This document shows positions 1,802 to 19,211 of a DNA stretch of 21,213 nt, piece by piece. Origin of the DNA: a virus. Location of the stretch: IMG/VR virus record IMGVR_UViG_3300011115_001004, positions 1 to 21,213 of that record. One strand, 5' to 3'. The notes below the pieces were generated by a model that worked only from the letters and a program-made list of their open reading frames with translations, was not told where the DNA came from and searched no databases. How positions within the stretch are numbered: position 1 is the first letter of the stretch; the number at the start of each line of letters is the position of its first letter. Position numbers and translations under genes: made by a program.

Positions 1802-2593
1802 CTACCAAAAATCTTTAAATGATTTCAGTGCGTAAAATACAAGGCTATTTCTATAACCGCCCTCTTGAATAGGTATGATAGGTGTTACACCATGAACATT
1901 ACGCCAAGCTGGATAAACGAGCATAGAATTATCTGCACTATCTACAGTAGCATTATAATCGGGAACAGTCGTATTGCCACCTTTTGCATTACTTTTTTTT
2001 GCAATAATTACATTGACACACCCTTCAAGATTTGCTCCATCAATGTGATAGTTGGCCGCAATATTGAAATTACTGATGCTTGATGTGAACAGTCTGCCAA
2101 ATCTATATTTAGGCGGTATGCTTTCTGTTACTACTTTCAATTGATTTTCAAATATATTAGGTGCTATGGATTTGATTACTTCTTCTGCTTCATAACATGC
2201 GAGCATCATGGCCTTGATAAATGTTTTGGCGCTTTCAACCCTATGCACACTACTGATGTTAGGATATGGCCGCCTCATGTGTGGCTTTGCAGGAATAGAG
2301 CCTATGATTGTGCTGTATTGAGTAATTATACGATAAATGTTTTTACCATTCTCATCTTTCCCCATAGGTTTTTTTCTGTCCATGTTTTGTTTTGGCACAC
2401 GATCAGACAGTAACTCTGCATTGGCTATCTCAACATACTGTTTAAGTTTGCCGCTTATTTCTTTTAAATAAAATCCTATCGGCACACCATCAGCATAAAA
2501 GATAGTGTCCTCTGTAATATTAGGTTGTAAGTTGCCACACTCATCACCAATTTTGATTGTATGTTCTTGCGGGCTTAAATCTACGCGCTTCAT
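1802..2593 (-). CDS. TET/JBP-family 2OG-Fe(II) dioxygenase (5-methylpyrimidine oxidase-like)
   Basis: Starting at ATG 2593, where ATGA overlaps the stop of the glycosyltransferase gene, this is a 263-residue protein. The longer in-frame reading has no support because it would lie deep in the upstream gene. The C-terminal double-stranded beta-helix shows iron ligands His183-x-Asp185 (NYHIDGANL), the distal His234 (NVHGVTP) and a 2-oxoglutarate-binding Arg248 (GYRNSLVFY). The layout 'HxD...GG...VPDY...HGVTP...RxSLVFY' is that of the TET/JBP superfamily, whose members oxidise the methyl group of 5-methylcytosine or thymine in DNA. Phage members work with TET-associated glycosyltransferases, and one is encoded immediately upstream. 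The family is strongly supported; whether 5mC or T is the target is unknown. Confidence 0.82.
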   Translation of the reverse strand: MKRVDLSPQEHTIKIGDECGNLQPNITEDTIFYADGVPIGFYLKEISGKLKQYVEIANAELLSDRVPKQNMDRKKPMGKDENGKNIYRIITQYSTIIGSIPAKPHMRRPYPNISSVHRVESAKTFIKAMMLACYEAEEVIKSIAPNIFENQLKVVTESIPPKYRFGRLFTSSISNFNIAANYHIDGANLEGCVNVIIAKKSNAKGGNTTVPDYNATVDSADNSMLVYPAWRNVHGVTPIIPIQEGGYRNSLVFYALKSFKDFW

Positions 2594-3321
2594 ACGATTT
2601 CTTTTTTGTAATGTGCGGCCACAGCTTTGATATCTGCTTTCATGTCTATGCGGCCTTTGTTCATTTTTAAAGTAATGAATGGATGCCACTCTTTGACAAT
2701 CATGCGAGCTGCTTCTTCATCTTCTTTTTTTTGATATTTTTCTTGTAAACCGCCAGCATTACTTCCGACATTTGGGCAGTTGAACCAAATATGATTGAAT
2801 CTTAAAATGCCTGAACCATATTTGATACATTGCAACGCAAAATCTCTGTCCCCCTTTAAAGGAAACTTTTCTTTGAAGCGCCATTTGATTTTCTCTACAT
2901 TAAGCAAGGCACATACATCAGGAAACTTGCGATTGACACTCCATGCTTTCTTTTCATGCCACGCATGTTGACAGTAATTCATTCCAATAATTTCAAAGGG
3001 CAATTTTGCCGCAGCATCTTCAATCGTTTTTAAAATGCTCGCATCTTTCTTTACTGTCTTGCCATTGTATATACCGAAACTCGTGATGTCATCATCTGCA
3101 AACCATGCCCATTTATGCCCATTTTTTTTGAGCCAATCTAATTTAAAGTTCCTGACATACATAAGACCTTTATTGTTTTCGCCAATATTGATTTTGTTAG
3201 GCACATCATAATCAGTGAAATCTTGAGGCTCTAAAAAATGATATACCTCATAACCTGCATCAGCAAATAATTTCCAAGTTTTTGTGTCAGGTCTTTTTCT
3301 TGATGGGATACAAACTATCAT
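2590..3321 (-). CDS. TET-associated DNA glycosyltransferase (TAGT/GREB1-like)
   Basis: A 243-residue protein opening with a GT-A glycosyltransferase core: 'MIVCIPSRKRP', then 'LEPQDFTDY', 'NNKGLMYVRNFKLDWLKKNG' and the metal/sugar-nucleotide motif WAWFADDDITSF with Asp76-78. This order matches the TET-associated glycosyltransferase family, found in phage operons with TET/JBP dioxygenases and related to the C-terminal part of vertebrate GREB1. The expected role is transfer of a sugar to a hydroxymethylated pyrimidine in phage DNA. It is coupled by ATGA overlaps on both sides, to the ParB-like gene upstream (3318-3321) and the dioxygenase downstream (2590-2593). The donor sugar cannot be read from the sequence. 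Confidence 0.8.
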   Translation of the reverse strand: MIVCIPSRKRPDTKTWKLFADAGYEVYHFLEPQDFTDYDVPNKINIGENNKGLMYVRNFKLDWLKKNGHKWAWFADDDITSFGIYNGKTVKKDASILKTIEDAAAKLPFEIIGMNYCQHAWHEKKAWSVNRKFPDVCALLNVEKIKWRFKEKFPLKGDRDFALQCIKYGSGILRFNHIWFNCPNVGSNAGGLQEKYQKKEDEEAARMIVKEWHPFITLKMNKGRIDMKADIKAVAAHYKKEIV

Positions 3322-13639: not shown

Positions 13640-13823
13640 CGAGGCAGGCAAAGGTTCAAAACAAAGGAAAACAAATAGAAAACAATATGATGAAAATTAC
13701 GATTTAATATTTGGCCGCAAAGAAAAGTATTATGATTCAGATGATGAATCTAACTCTTGGGACGAGGACAAAATAAATATCGTTGGCACTAATGGCAGCA
13801 CAGGCGATCATTATATTAAATGA
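13629..13823 (+). CDS. Small conserved phage protein (GKGSKQRKT type)
   Basis: A 64-residue protein overlapping the phosphoesterase end by 11 bases. It begins 'MSYSEAGKGSKQRKTNRKQY', then 'DENYDLIFGRKE', and has an acidic C-terminal half ('YDSDDESNSWDEDK'). The pattern 'GKGSxxRxTNxxxYxxNYDxIFG' recurs in short proteins of many phages, function unknown. The charged, probably disordered layout (basic front, acidic rear) suggests nucleic-acid or protein binding rather than catalysis. Confidence 0.55.
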   Translation: MSYSEAGKGSKQRKTNRKQYDENYDLIFGRKEKYYDSDDESNSWDEDKINIVGTNGSTGDHYIK

Positions 13824-13930
13824 TGCTCAAATTACTTGTGGCCTACACTTTATATCATTATGAAGCTGCGTTGATTTGGTGGGTTTTATATTTCATAGTT
13901 TTATGGACAGAAAAAAAGGGAGCGTTTTAA
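13820..13930 (+). CDS. 36-residue membrane peptide, last rightward gene
   Basis: A short frame from ATG 13820 (ATGA overlap with the previous stop) to TAA 13930. It encodes MMLKLLVAYTLYHYEAALIW followed by a second hydrophobic stretch and a charged end (WTEKKGAF). One long membrane segment fits residues about 3-29. There is no strong ribosome site, so coupling would be needed. Its last codons form one arm of the terminator at 13911-13938. Moderate doubt remains because it is short. Confidence 0.4.
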   Translation: MMLKLLVAYTLYHYEAALIWWVLYFIVLWTEKKGAF

Positions 13931-13938
13931 GCTCCCTT
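13911..13938 (-). terminator. Intrinsic terminator of the leftward late cluster
   Basis: An 8-bp stem AAGGGAGC / GCTCCCTT (13916-13923 and 13931-13938) closes a 7-base loop. On the minus strand the stem is followed by seven U residues (the A7 run at 13911-13917, partly in the stem). This is a good leftward terminator after pqqA. Rightward there are only two U residues after the stem, so it is weaker in that direction, but it lies exactly at the junction of the two convergent clusters. Confidence 0.8.
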
Positions 13939-13949
13939 GACTAACTTAA

Positions 13950-13978
13950 GGATACATTGTGTATGAAGCAATGTGTCC
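13950..13978. other. Hairpin at the convergent junction
   Basis: GGATACATTG (13950-13959) pairs with CAATGTGTCC (13969-13978) across a 9-base loop. In a rightward transcript all ten pairs form, one as G-U. In a leftward transcript one pair is an A-C mismatch. No U-run follows on the plus strand. It may protect the 3' end of the rightward mRNA. A TGCTATAAT (extended -10-like) lies beside it on the minus strand at 13981-13989. Confidence 0.4.
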
Positions 13979-13989
13979 ACATTATAGCA

Positions 13990-14061
13990 TTATTTATTCA
14001 TAACATACATAGTAACTTCAAATCCAAATCTCATTTCTGTAGCTGCTGGTTTAGTCCACAT
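13990..14061 (-). CDS. pqqA: PqqA-like PQQ precursor peptide
   Basis: A 23-codon gene, ATG 14061 to TAA 13990. The peptide starts MWTKPAATEMRF, its core is GFEVTMYV and it ends MNK. It matches PqqA in length (23 residues, as in the Klebsiella peptide), in the N-terminal MWxKPA, in the Arg-x-Gly run-up and above all in Glu15-Val-Thr-x-Tyr19. Glu15 and Tyr19 are the two residues cross-linked by PqqE and built into the cofactor PQQ. AAAGG lies eight to nine bases upstream of the ATG. PqqA has no enzyme activity; it is carried by PqqD to PqqE and then processed by host PqqB/C/F. No other pqq gene is in the window, so the phage would rely on the host pathway. PQQ serves methanol and other alcohol dehydrogenases. 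It is the last gene of the late leftward cluster. Confidence 0.88.
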   Translation of the reverse strand: MWTKPAATEMRFGFEVTMYVMNK

Positions 14062-14081
14062 AATATTTGCCTTTCATTTAT

Positions 14082-14101
14082 GACAAACAAAATTATTTGT
14101 C
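14082..14101 (-). promoter_or_regulatory. Hairpin just upstream of pqqA
   Basis: GACAAA (14082-14087) and TTTGTC (14096-14101) form a 6-bp inverted repeat with an 8-base loop, ending 20 bases before the pqqA ATG and just before its ribosome site. It could mark an RNA processing point or a weak control element. The stem is AT-rich and may be chance. Confidence 0.25.
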
Positions 14102-14147
14102 TAGCAAATTATGGCTTTTTTGCAATACAAAAACATCAAGAAAATCA

Positions 14148-14306
14148 TTATTTAAATTTAGAACGAGCCCATTCATAAATTCTAATGCAATACCAAATGA
14201 TTGATAGCAATGCGGCTATTGCTGGTAAAAATTTCATTATTGCGCCAAAAGCTGTAAGTCCCGAAACTGTATCTAATACATGCTTCGTATGTTCTTGCAT
14301 ATCCAT
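14148..14306 (-). CDS. 52-residue membrane protein, holin-like
   Basis: A frame from ATG 14306 to TAA 14148. It encodes MDMQEHTKHVLDTVSGLTAF, then a hydrophobic helix 'MKFLPAIAALLSIIWYCIRI' and the charged end 'YEWARSKFK'. Small phage proteins with a polar front, a 'LPxIAAL...IWxxIRIYE' helix and a basic tail occur near tail-fibre and lysis genes and are sometimes called holins. I use 'holin-like' only for that likeness. A clear 3TM holin is present elsewhere (679-1062). The ribosome site is weak (AGAAAGAAATAAC). The gene fills part of what would otherwise be an empty 370-base gap. Confidence 0.55.
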   Translation of the reverse strand: MDMQEHTKHVLDTVSGLTAFGAIMKFLPAIAALLSIIWYCIRIYEWARSKFK

Positions 14307-16538: not shown

Positions 16539-19211
16539 TTAAATTGGATACACTAAATCAACCCTTTGTGATATTGCCAATGCTGTTCCAAATACCACGC
16601 TAGTTCCTGAAGTTACAGTTACATCAACTGCATTAATCATTTTAACACCTTGTAAAAATACTTGAATTTTTCCTGAAGTGTATGTTTGTGTTGTAGTGAA
16701 TGTTGTCTGTGCCGCAGAAGAAGTAAATTGATCGTAAATCATTTTAGTTACTATGCTAGGTGCAGTGCCACTGTAGCCTGAATATCCTGAAAAACCTGAA
16801 ACTCCGCTACCTGAATAACCACTTATTCCACTACCTGAATATCCACTAAAGCCACTTGCTCCATTAGCTCCACTAAATCCGCTAATACCTGAAAATCCAT
16901 TGATACCACTATAGCCTGATAAACCTTGTGCGCCACTAAAACCTGAATATCCACTAATACCTGAAGCGCCTACTGCACCTGAATAGCCACTAATACCTGA
17001 TGCTCCATTGATGCCTGAATAGCCACTAAAGCCACTTGTTCCATTAGCTCCGCTAATTCCTGAATAACCACTAAAACCACTTGCACCAACTTCACCGCTA
17101 AATCCACTAAAACCTGATGAACCATTAGCGCCACTAAAACCTGAAGTGCCACTTGCACCATTAATACCTGAATAACCTGAATCACCTTTTAATCCACTGT
17201 ATCCACTAAATCCACTGTAACCTGAAAGACCAGGCGTTCCAACTTCACCGCTATAACCGCTATAACCTGATTGACCTATAGCTCCACTAAAACCGCTAAA
17301 TCCTGAATAGCCACTTATTCCACTGTAACCTGAATCACCAATTAAACCTGAATAGCCACTATAGCCACTATAACCTGAAGTGCCTGGAGTTCCTACTTCA
17401 CCACTGAAACCTGAATAGCCACTATAGCCTGAAATTCCTACTGCTCCGCTATAACCACTGTAACCACTAAATCCACTATAGCCTGATATACCATTAATAA
17501 TAGCTAAAAATAATTGTTGATTATTTGTAAATCCCGTTGTGCCTGTTCCGCTAGATGAAATTAAAGATACGGGAACAGTCCAATAGCTATTAGAAGTGCC
17601 TGGATTAATATTTGTAGGTGTTCCATTAACTAACCAAATTTGATTGTTTGTGCTTACATTTCTATCTTGAATAGTAAATTGTTCTGTGTTTTCTAAACCA
17701 GCCAAGAAAATATCAATGTCAGTATTGTCTTCAGTTAAATGGTCAATATTAATTTGAGTGCCAAGAATTTGCACTGCATTGTTCCATAACAAATGACCAT
17801 TAGTTGGCTGACCGCTATAATGAGTAGTATCAGCTTTATATAAGAATAAACTTGATGATCCGCCTGTAGCACCTTGAGCGCCTGAATACCCGCTATCACC
17901 TGAATATCCACTAATTCCACTTTCACCGCTAAATCCGCTTATGCCACTGTATCCACTAAATCCTGATATGCCTGAAGCACCAACCATACCACTCCAGCCA
18001 CTAAATCCTGAATCACCTGAAGCACCGACTTCACCTGAAAAACCACTGTATCCACTGTAGCCTGAAATACCTATTTCCCCGCTAAACCCTGATTCACCGC
18101 TCCATCCACTGTAGCCTGAAATTCCTGAAGCACCAACTTCACCTGACCATCCGCTAAAGCCTGAATATCCTGATGTTCCATCTTGACCTGAATAACCTGA
18201 TTCACCATTGATACCGCTAAAGCCTGATATACCTGATTCGCCTGACCATCCACTTATTCCTGAATCACCACTGAATCCACTAATACCTGAATCGCCACTA
18301 AATCCACTGATTCCACTGTCGCCACTATAGCCACTAATACCTGAATCGCCACTGTAGCCGCTTATGCCGCTATCACCTGAAAATCCACTGTAGCCTGATA
18401 TACCTGACCAACCTGATATACCACTGAAACCATTAATTCCACTGTAGCCACTTAAACCATTAATACCACTAAATCCTGACCAACCTGATATACCTGATTC
18501 ACCACTCCATCCGCTTATGCCCGAATCACCGCTATAGCCACTGATTCCGCTATCGCCACTGAAACCTGATATACCACTATCGCCTGAATAACCACTTATG
18601 CCTGAATCACCTGACCATCCGCTATAACCTGATATTCCGCTATCGCCTGACCATCCGCTTTCACCGCTTCCGCTATATCCTGAATAACCTGAAATGCCAC
18701 TATCACCTGAAAAGCCTGATATACCGCTATCACCGCTAAATCCTGATATGCCTGAATCACCACTAAATCCTGAATAACCTGATTCACCACTGAATCCGCT
18801 TTCGCCTGGTGGTCCTACAATTTGACCAACATTAGTCCAAGTTGAACCTGTCCATACATATAGATCACCATCTGCTTCTACAATATATGCGTCATTAAGA
18901 TTTCCTGATGCTGGAAGATCACCAACAGTTGGAACAGTTCCAATAATATTAATTGAAGTGCCTTGTTGTCCGCTTTCGCCTGACCAGCCGCTAAAGCCTG
19001 ATTGACCTGAAAATCCGCTATAGCCGCTAATACCACTAGCACCTGAATAGCCTGAATAGCCAAAACCACTATAACCTGAAAATCCTGAATATCCTGATTG
19101 ACCTGAAGCACCTTGAACACTACGATCAATCGTTACTTGAGTTGCAGAAGGTGGTGTTACATTGACAGTTAAATTATTACTATCAATAACATCAATAGAA
19201 TAATTAGCCAT
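16539..19211 (-). CDS. Giant collagen-like Gly-X-Ser tail fibre/adhesin
   Basis: An 890-residue protein. Residues 1-33 form a short head domain. Three collagen-like tracts follow (about 34-86, 133-450 and 572-817), made of Gly-X-Ser triplets in which X is mostly Tyr, Phe, Ile, Trp, Asp or Glu. Typical text is 'SGYSGFSGDSGISG'. Inserted between them are two globular domains: about 87-132 ('VGDLPASGNLNDAYIVEADG', common in phage tail proteins) and about 451-571 (beta-rich, with 'FTIQDRNVSTNNQIWLVNG'). The C-terminus (818-890) is a beta-rich tip, probably the trimerisation or receptor part. Unlike animal collagen, proline is almost absent and serine fills nearly every third place. It is probably a trimeric fibre for host binding. 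Genes for sugar transfer and methylation follow on the same strand. Confidence 0.85.
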   Translation of the reverse strand: MANYSIDVIDSNNLTVNVTPPSATQVTIDRSVQGASGQSGYSGFSGYSGFGYSGYSGASGISGYSGFSGQSGFSGWSGESGQQGTSINIIGTVPTVGDLPASGNLNDAYIVEADGDLYVWTGSTWTNVGQIVGPPGESGFSGESGYSGFSGDSGISGFSGDSGISGFSGDSGISGYSGYSGSGESGWSGDSGISGYSGWSGDSGISGYSGDSGISGFSGDSGISGYSGDSGISGWSGESGISGWSGFSGINGLSGYSGINGFSGISGWSGISGYSGFSGDSGISGYSGDSGISGYSGDSGISGFSGDSGISGFSGDSGISGWSGESGISGFSGINGESGYSGQDGTSGYSGFSGWSGEVGASGISGYSGWSGESGFSGEIGISGYSGYSGFSGEVGASGDSGFSGWSGMVGASGISGFSGYSGISGFSGESGISGYSGDSGYSGAQGATGGSSSLFLYKADTTHYSGQPTNGHLLWNNAVQILGTQINIDHLTEDNTDIDIFLAGLENTEQFTIQDRNVSTNNQIWLVNGTPTNINPGTSNSYWTVPVSLISSSGTGTTGFTNNQQLFLAIINGISGYSGFSGYSGYSGAVGISGYSGYSGFSGEVGTPGTSGYSGYSGYSGLIGDSGYSGISGYSGFSGFSGAIGQSGYSGYSGEVGTPGLSGYSGFSGYSGLKGDSGYSGINGASGTSGFSGANGSSGFSGFSGEVGASGFSGYSGISGANGTSGFSGYSGINGASGISGYSGAVGASGISGYSGFSGAQGLSGYSGINGFSGISGFSGANGASGFSGYSGSGISGYSGSGVSGFSGYSGYSGTAPSIVTKMIYDQFTSSAAQTTFTTTQTYTSGKIQVFLQGVKMINAVDVTVTSGTSVVFGTALAISQRVDLVYPI
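16750..19110 (-). repeat. Minisatellite-like 9/18-base coding repeats of the fibre
   Basis: Most of this stretch is built of 9-base units (three codons, Gly-X-Ser) in which synonymous codons for Gly (GGA/GGT/GGC) and Ser (TCA/AGT/AGC) alternate. Longer blocks of 18-36 bases recur. Such DNA can gain or lose units by slippage or by the phage's own annealing recombinase, changing fibre length in frame. Confidence 0.8.

Follow-up and report, generated by a model that had tools for sequence, protein, structure and literature searches.

PQQ is the cofactor of methanol oxidation, and its precursor peptide PqqA is consumed during synthesis, one molecule per PQQ, with PqqBCDE serving as the catalysts. 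That phages supply the quickly used-up part of a host energy pathway is familiar from cyanophage psbA and similar auxiliary genes. The closest described counterpart of the gene that we analyse here is a viral pqqA in the Lake Baikal virus population VP_266, reported in 2020 with a predicted contribution to methanol oxidation by Methylophilaceae (PMC7678222). In its available parts, that report deals with a single T4-like population in which pqqA occurs with a methanol dehydrogenase gene, and no analysis of an operator, of selection or of distribution was found there. On the host side, 3–12 copies of pqqA accompany a single set of the other pqq genes (PMC4109929), and a methanol-grown PQQ producer expresses its five pqqA copies differentially (PMC9851590).

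The phage gene resembles that of VP_266 in its viral location and in the role proposed for it in methanol oxidation, and differs in that xoxF was not found beside any viral pqqA copy examined. With the pqqA genes of host Methylophilaceae, which are multi-copy and lie mostly away from pqqBCDE, it shares the 23-residue peptide, the GFE[VI]TMY core, a palindromic operator, a −10 element and a tendency towards a leader hairpin. As with psbA, the phage would supply a fast-consumed part; unlike psbA, that part is a ribosomal peptide consumed as a substrate of cofactor synthesis rather than an enzyme subunit.

The window gene and its genomic setting

The window, by which we mean the whole stretch of 21,213 bases that was analysed, is a virus record encoding ERF and YqaJ recombination genes, endolysins, and HNH and VRR-NUC-like genes. 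Its closest named relative is Methylophilaceae phage P19250A (~72–79% DNA identity over the shared parts), the host of which is a freshwater Methylophilaceae bacterium. These phage genes, together with the synteny with P19250A, place pqqA, a metabolic gene of host type, in a genuine phage genome. The gene lies where rightward early genes meet leftward late genes, amid the following features.

13916–13938, minus strand: intrinsic terminator, leftward, 8-bp stem followed by a T run (terminator search)
13990–14061, minus strand: pqqA, 23 codons, encoding MWTKPAATEMRFGFEVTMYVMNK (Pfam and NCBIfam matches above curated cutoffs)
14070–14075, minus strand: Shine-Dalgarno-like GAAAGG, 8 nt 5' of the ATG (sequence)
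14082–14101, minus strand: predicted 5'-leader hairpin GACAAA-taattttg-TTTGTC at the predicted transcript start (fold of 13911–14101)
14108–14113, minus strand: −10-like CATAAT, 21 nt after the operator (sequence)
14135–14150, minus strand: palindromic operator TAATGATTTTCTTGAT of the host pqqA type, sharing bases with the stop codon of the holin-like ORF (host-trained matrix)
14148–14306, minus strand: small membrane protein upstream of pqqA, 52 aa, holin-like by sequence (no Pfam or PHROG match)

The 23-aa ORF begins with ATG, and its product matches both Pfam PF08042 (PqqA; 42.4 bits, gathering cutoff 21.1, E 6e-11) and the NCBIfam equivalog TIGR02107 (40.4 bits, cutoff 20). The Glu-x3-Tyr pair falls at Glu15 and Tyr19, which we take to be the residues cross-linked by PqqE. 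PHROGs holds no family for the peptide, and Rfam holds none over the pqqA locus. A Shine-Dalgarno-like site is likewise present in 165 of 166 viral copies and in all six finished-phage copies, and the leftward terminator is the sole one in the region searched (shuffled sequence gave 0.3). An earlier note, written from the sequence alone, had read this frame as a genuine PqqA gene on phage DNA, preceded by a ribosome site, followed by a leftward terminator and encoding Glu15 and Tyr19 at the spacing needed for cross-linking; in all that the sequence can show, it was right. It had also placed the gene at the end of the late cluster, which holds as a description of position, pqqA following the late-strand holin-like ORF, but not necessarily as one of expression, because the gene has a promoter signature of its own and sister phages carry pqqA at the same junction on the opposite strand.

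Indeed, comparison of the window with P19250A and with contig L317 shows both flanks to be collinear and the block 13720–14150, comprising pqqA and a small gene near 13720–13833, to be inverted; in L317 the homologous block stops at the operator's edge (14150). Of the relatives identified by way of the adjacent glycosyltransferase, 50 have enough flank, and 14 of these carry pqqA, in either orientation; the 14 are the closer ones to the window. The gene is present in none of ten longer records or fragments that are related through the neighbouring gene and fall outside the pqqA-bearing group, and is therefore not essential to the whole phage group.

Elsewhere in the window, 16539–19211 encodes an 890-aa collagen-like protein with SGYSGFSG-type repeats that is probably a tail fibre. 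Two ORFs are possible DNA or nucleotide modification genes, one (1802–2689) matching PHROG 6059, labelled queuine tRNA-ribosyltransferase, and the other (2590–3321) matching PHROG 842, a glucosyl-HMC glucosyltransferase.

Distribution of phage pqqA and selection on the peptide

Searches with the peptide (tblastn) identified pqqA in nine of nine cultured methylophage records matched (Venkman, P19250A, MEP301, MEP401, MEP402 and four Melnitz), these being the Methylophilales or Methylophilaceae phage records that the search found; further methylophage names exist in the taxonomy. None of the nine is annotated with PqqA, which bears out the suspicion in the earlier note that gene callers miss this gene in other phages. 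In particular, the site carries no annotated feature in the five smaller phages (Venkman, P19250A, MEP301, MEP401 and MEP402), and in Melnitz-1 (the Melnitz record examined) and the cave-spring phage ctXG6705 the annotation shows a hypothetical protein on the strand opposite to pqqA. The gene is shared by unrelated phages: blastn of the queried part of the window against Venkman, ctXG6705, MEP301, MEP401 and Melnitz revealed similarity only over pqqA and a few bases, and MEP402 (Zobellviridae) and Melnitz (Kyanoviridae), in the regions sampled, have no protein in common with one another or with the remaining finished phages. (When pqqA contigs are linked through the genes they share, low thresholds give one chained component, and no lineage count was drawn from it.)

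Relatives are also abundant among uncultured viruses. Three scans of viral contigs with degenerate DNA patterns detected pqqA in at least ~270 contigs (among the matches listed), and codon frequencies lead to an estimate of at least several hundred viral copies in total. The IMG/VR pattern GFE[VIM]TMY occurs in at least 119 stretches, and among the matches listed all are PqqA with a full N-terminus. Exactly one copy is present in each of 15 larger viral records of 36–356 kb. Lone pqqA is very common in viruses of methylotrophs. A single copy (L036, 684–704) sits on a jumbo-size viral contig of 356,312 bases. There is, in addition, a second viral PqqA class (xxIRL/xxVRL-GFE[VI]TMYF; L005, L013, L021, L028, L040, L048 and L055), found without the operator and probably belonging to phages of other PQQ-making hosts.

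Because the pattern GFE[VIM]TMY itself contains Glu15 and Tyr19, the retention of these residues was measured again with N-terminal patterns that exclude both. Glu15, Tyr19 and the 23-codon length are kept in 120 of 120 copies and in 103 of 105 further copies (223 of 225, among the matches listed), the two exceptions being frameshifted; disruption of the pair in related phages, which the earlier note had named as evidence against its proposal, was seen in no other copy listed. Outside the search patterns, pN/pS was 0.076 (codons 13–23) and 0.34 (codons 2–12 and 20–23), compared with 3 and 6 in shifted frames, so that the gene, as would be expected of an auxiliary gene, is retained by selection. 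Between the window and other phages, 7 of 12 (ctXG6705) and 11 of 12.5 (MEP301) synonymous sites have changed, with 0 to 5 nonsynonymous changes. What is conserved is the PqqA peptide rather than the DNA.

The operator and probable promoter of phage and host pqqA

An unsupervised motif search upstream of pqqA returned sites of the ATGATTTT type for 83% of viral copies and TCATGA-WWW-TCATTAG for 86% of host copies, in both cases with scores far above those of shuffles, and both motifs fit the palindrome TMATGA-WWW-TCATKA, presumably similar to a Fur-box core. A matrix trained on hosts only, with its threshold at the top 1% of 1,753 control ORF upstreams (same contigs), recognised 85 of 138 viral upstreams; on held-out contigs it recognised 26 of 48 viral upstreams against 13 of 1,160 controls. 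The window operator scores 11.0, the top 1% level of control ORF upstreams being 7.96. Roughly 40–45% of viral pqqA copies have no operator above the strict cutoff. In the hosts the operator lies mostly before pqq genes: its strict pattern yielded 40 matches in eight host genomes, against 5 with a reversed control, and the 40 merge to 32 places, 23 of which precede pqqA and one of which precedes pqqB. The pqq operator was seen before pqqB in a Methylophilus genome and before a TonB-dependent-receptor-like ORF (L382, ~1501; L407, ~1500), a possible further regulon member.

Phage and host copies share the operator and −10 arrangement, a likeness that is new here, and they differ in its layout. 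Host pqqA genes typically have two operators, with a second half-site or operator ~22 bp beyond the first and the −10 mostly 44 nt after the first, whereas phages usually have one operator, with the −10 most commonly 21–22 nt after it. In Venkman and MEP301, pqqA stands alone and opposes the direction of its neighbours, an orientation that calls for a promoter of its own. From these sequence features, pqqA looks like an autonomous host-regulated unit, more than just the last gene of a late operon. The leader hairpin was also considered as a conserved RNA and rejected: leaders of viral and host pqqA fold better on average than control leaders, but the effect is modest and there is no common sequence, and we therefore claim no riboswitch.

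Proposed precursor supply and its alternatives

In the viral loci examined, the substrate gene alone is carried. Genes for PqqBCDE were found in none of the 167 and 105 viral loci (among the matches listed), whereas 31 of 120 host loci of comparable size contain pqq genes, and the 15 large viral records (36–356 kb) yielded no PqqE above cutoff. Proximity to pqqBCDE, a common but not required trait of the PqqA family, is lacking in the phages, and hosts also hold dispersed copies. Within the phage collection, full-length, high-identity PqqE appeared only in contaminated Acinetobacter records, and PQQ-dehydrogenase matches only in records that resemble host DNA by annotation. We set aside the matches to Acinetobacter "phage" MD-2021a (CAKLQF020000010.1 and CAKLQH020000055.1) as host contamination, since the whole pqqABCDE operon is present. 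All 121 Methylophilaceae genomes searched contain pqqA, 118 of them in more than one copy and up to 12; PqqE was above cutoff in nine of ten host genomes checked, the tenth being a 0.9-Mb assembly that may be incomplete; and a PQQ alcohol dehydrogenase exceeded its family cutoff in both genomes searched for it. Of the host pathway that the earlier note had asked after, PqqE is thus present in nearly all hosts checked, usually with several copies of pqqA.

We propose that phage pqqA is a functional stand-alone auxiliary metabolic gene of Methylophilaceae phages that sustains host PQQ and methanol oxidation, a reading to which we assign a probability of roughly 0.78. During infection, a host-type promoter belonging to the gene (operator, −10 and leader hairpin) would drive its transcription, and the product would be the 23-residue precursor, which host PqqD and PqqE would cross-link at Glu15–Tyr19 and host PqqB and PqqC would finish to PQQ. 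Because the enzymes are reusable and PqqA is destroyed with each PQQ made, pqqA alone would suffice to keep PQQ going, and its supply could by itself keep methanol dehydrogenase and methanol oxidation running in the infected cell. A consumed part joined to a host-type switch would be an economical means of PQQ upkeep while host transcription declines. The culture medium of H5P1, a host of Venkman and Melnitz, contains added PQQ (PMC9004378), which might hide such a benefit. The idea that the phage supplies extra substrate to the host PQQ pathway had been put forward in the earlier note, and conservation of the peptide across unrelated methylotroph phages, with PqqE in their hosts, supports it.

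The same peptide could instead act as a decoy that occupies PqqD and PqqE and blocks or diverts host PQQ synthesis, since a short, high-copy peptide might in principle compete with host PqqA. A decoy would, however, gain by losing Glu15 or Tyr19 and so escaping consumption, and the near-universal retention of both, along with the closeness of the peptide to host PqqA and the host pqq operator, fits supply; we regard this alternative, also raised in the earlier note, as quite improbable. Still more improbable is that the operator is the functional element, titrating a host regulator as phage genomes replicate, with the ORF as a passenger: the operator is indeed kept in over half of viral copies, but the ORF is under strong purifying selection and many copies keep it with no recognisable operator.

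Recent capture from a host, which the earlier note had also listed, might have left a gene without function, and host contamination might explain viral copies, as it does for the Acinetobacter records. Cultured phage genomes nevertheless hold pqqA, viral loci have no pqqBCDE flank, and phages differ at most synonymous sites of the gene yet retain its peptide, which argues against recent capture; the signal of selection already contradicts a lack of function, and the chance of either origin is very slight. A use other than methanol oxidation (for example by further PQQ enzymes, in redox protection or through PQQ release at lysis) is unlikely. It might apply to the minority class of viral PqqA, which differs in sequence, lacks the operator and probably belongs to other hosts; every named host of pqqA-bearing phages, however, belongs to the Methylophilales or Methylophilaceae, and both host genomes searched encode the PQQ alcohol dehydrogenase.

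Phage pqqA is not mentioned in the searched text (by keyword) of papers on cultured OM43 phages (PMC9004378, PMC8024684, PMC10580990 and PMC8163748) or of a catalogue of metabolic genes in viruses of the global ocean (PMC11360552); genes of 23 codons probably escape gene calling. Neither the breadth of phage pqqA nor its selection or regulatory cassette appears to have been reported, a provisional judgement given that subscription papers and preprints lay outside the search.

Taken together, the proposed supply of PqqA by phages inclines us, on balance, towards a broader view, in which most methylotroph phages would carry a mobile, self-contained cassette (host pqq operator, promoter, leader hairpin, pqqA and terminator) plugged into the host PQQ regulon, and in which methanol oxidation by infected cells of fresh and marine waters would be controlled through a consumed RiPP substrate. 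The operator would offer a handle on the regulator of PQQ synthesis in Methylophilaceae. The gene would also provide a clean test of phage gene choice, in that only the used-up part of a pathway of reusable enzymes is carried, with a host-type switch attached, and it may represent a widespread and overlooked viral influence on methanol oxidation, one of the steps in the one-carbon cycle of natural waters.
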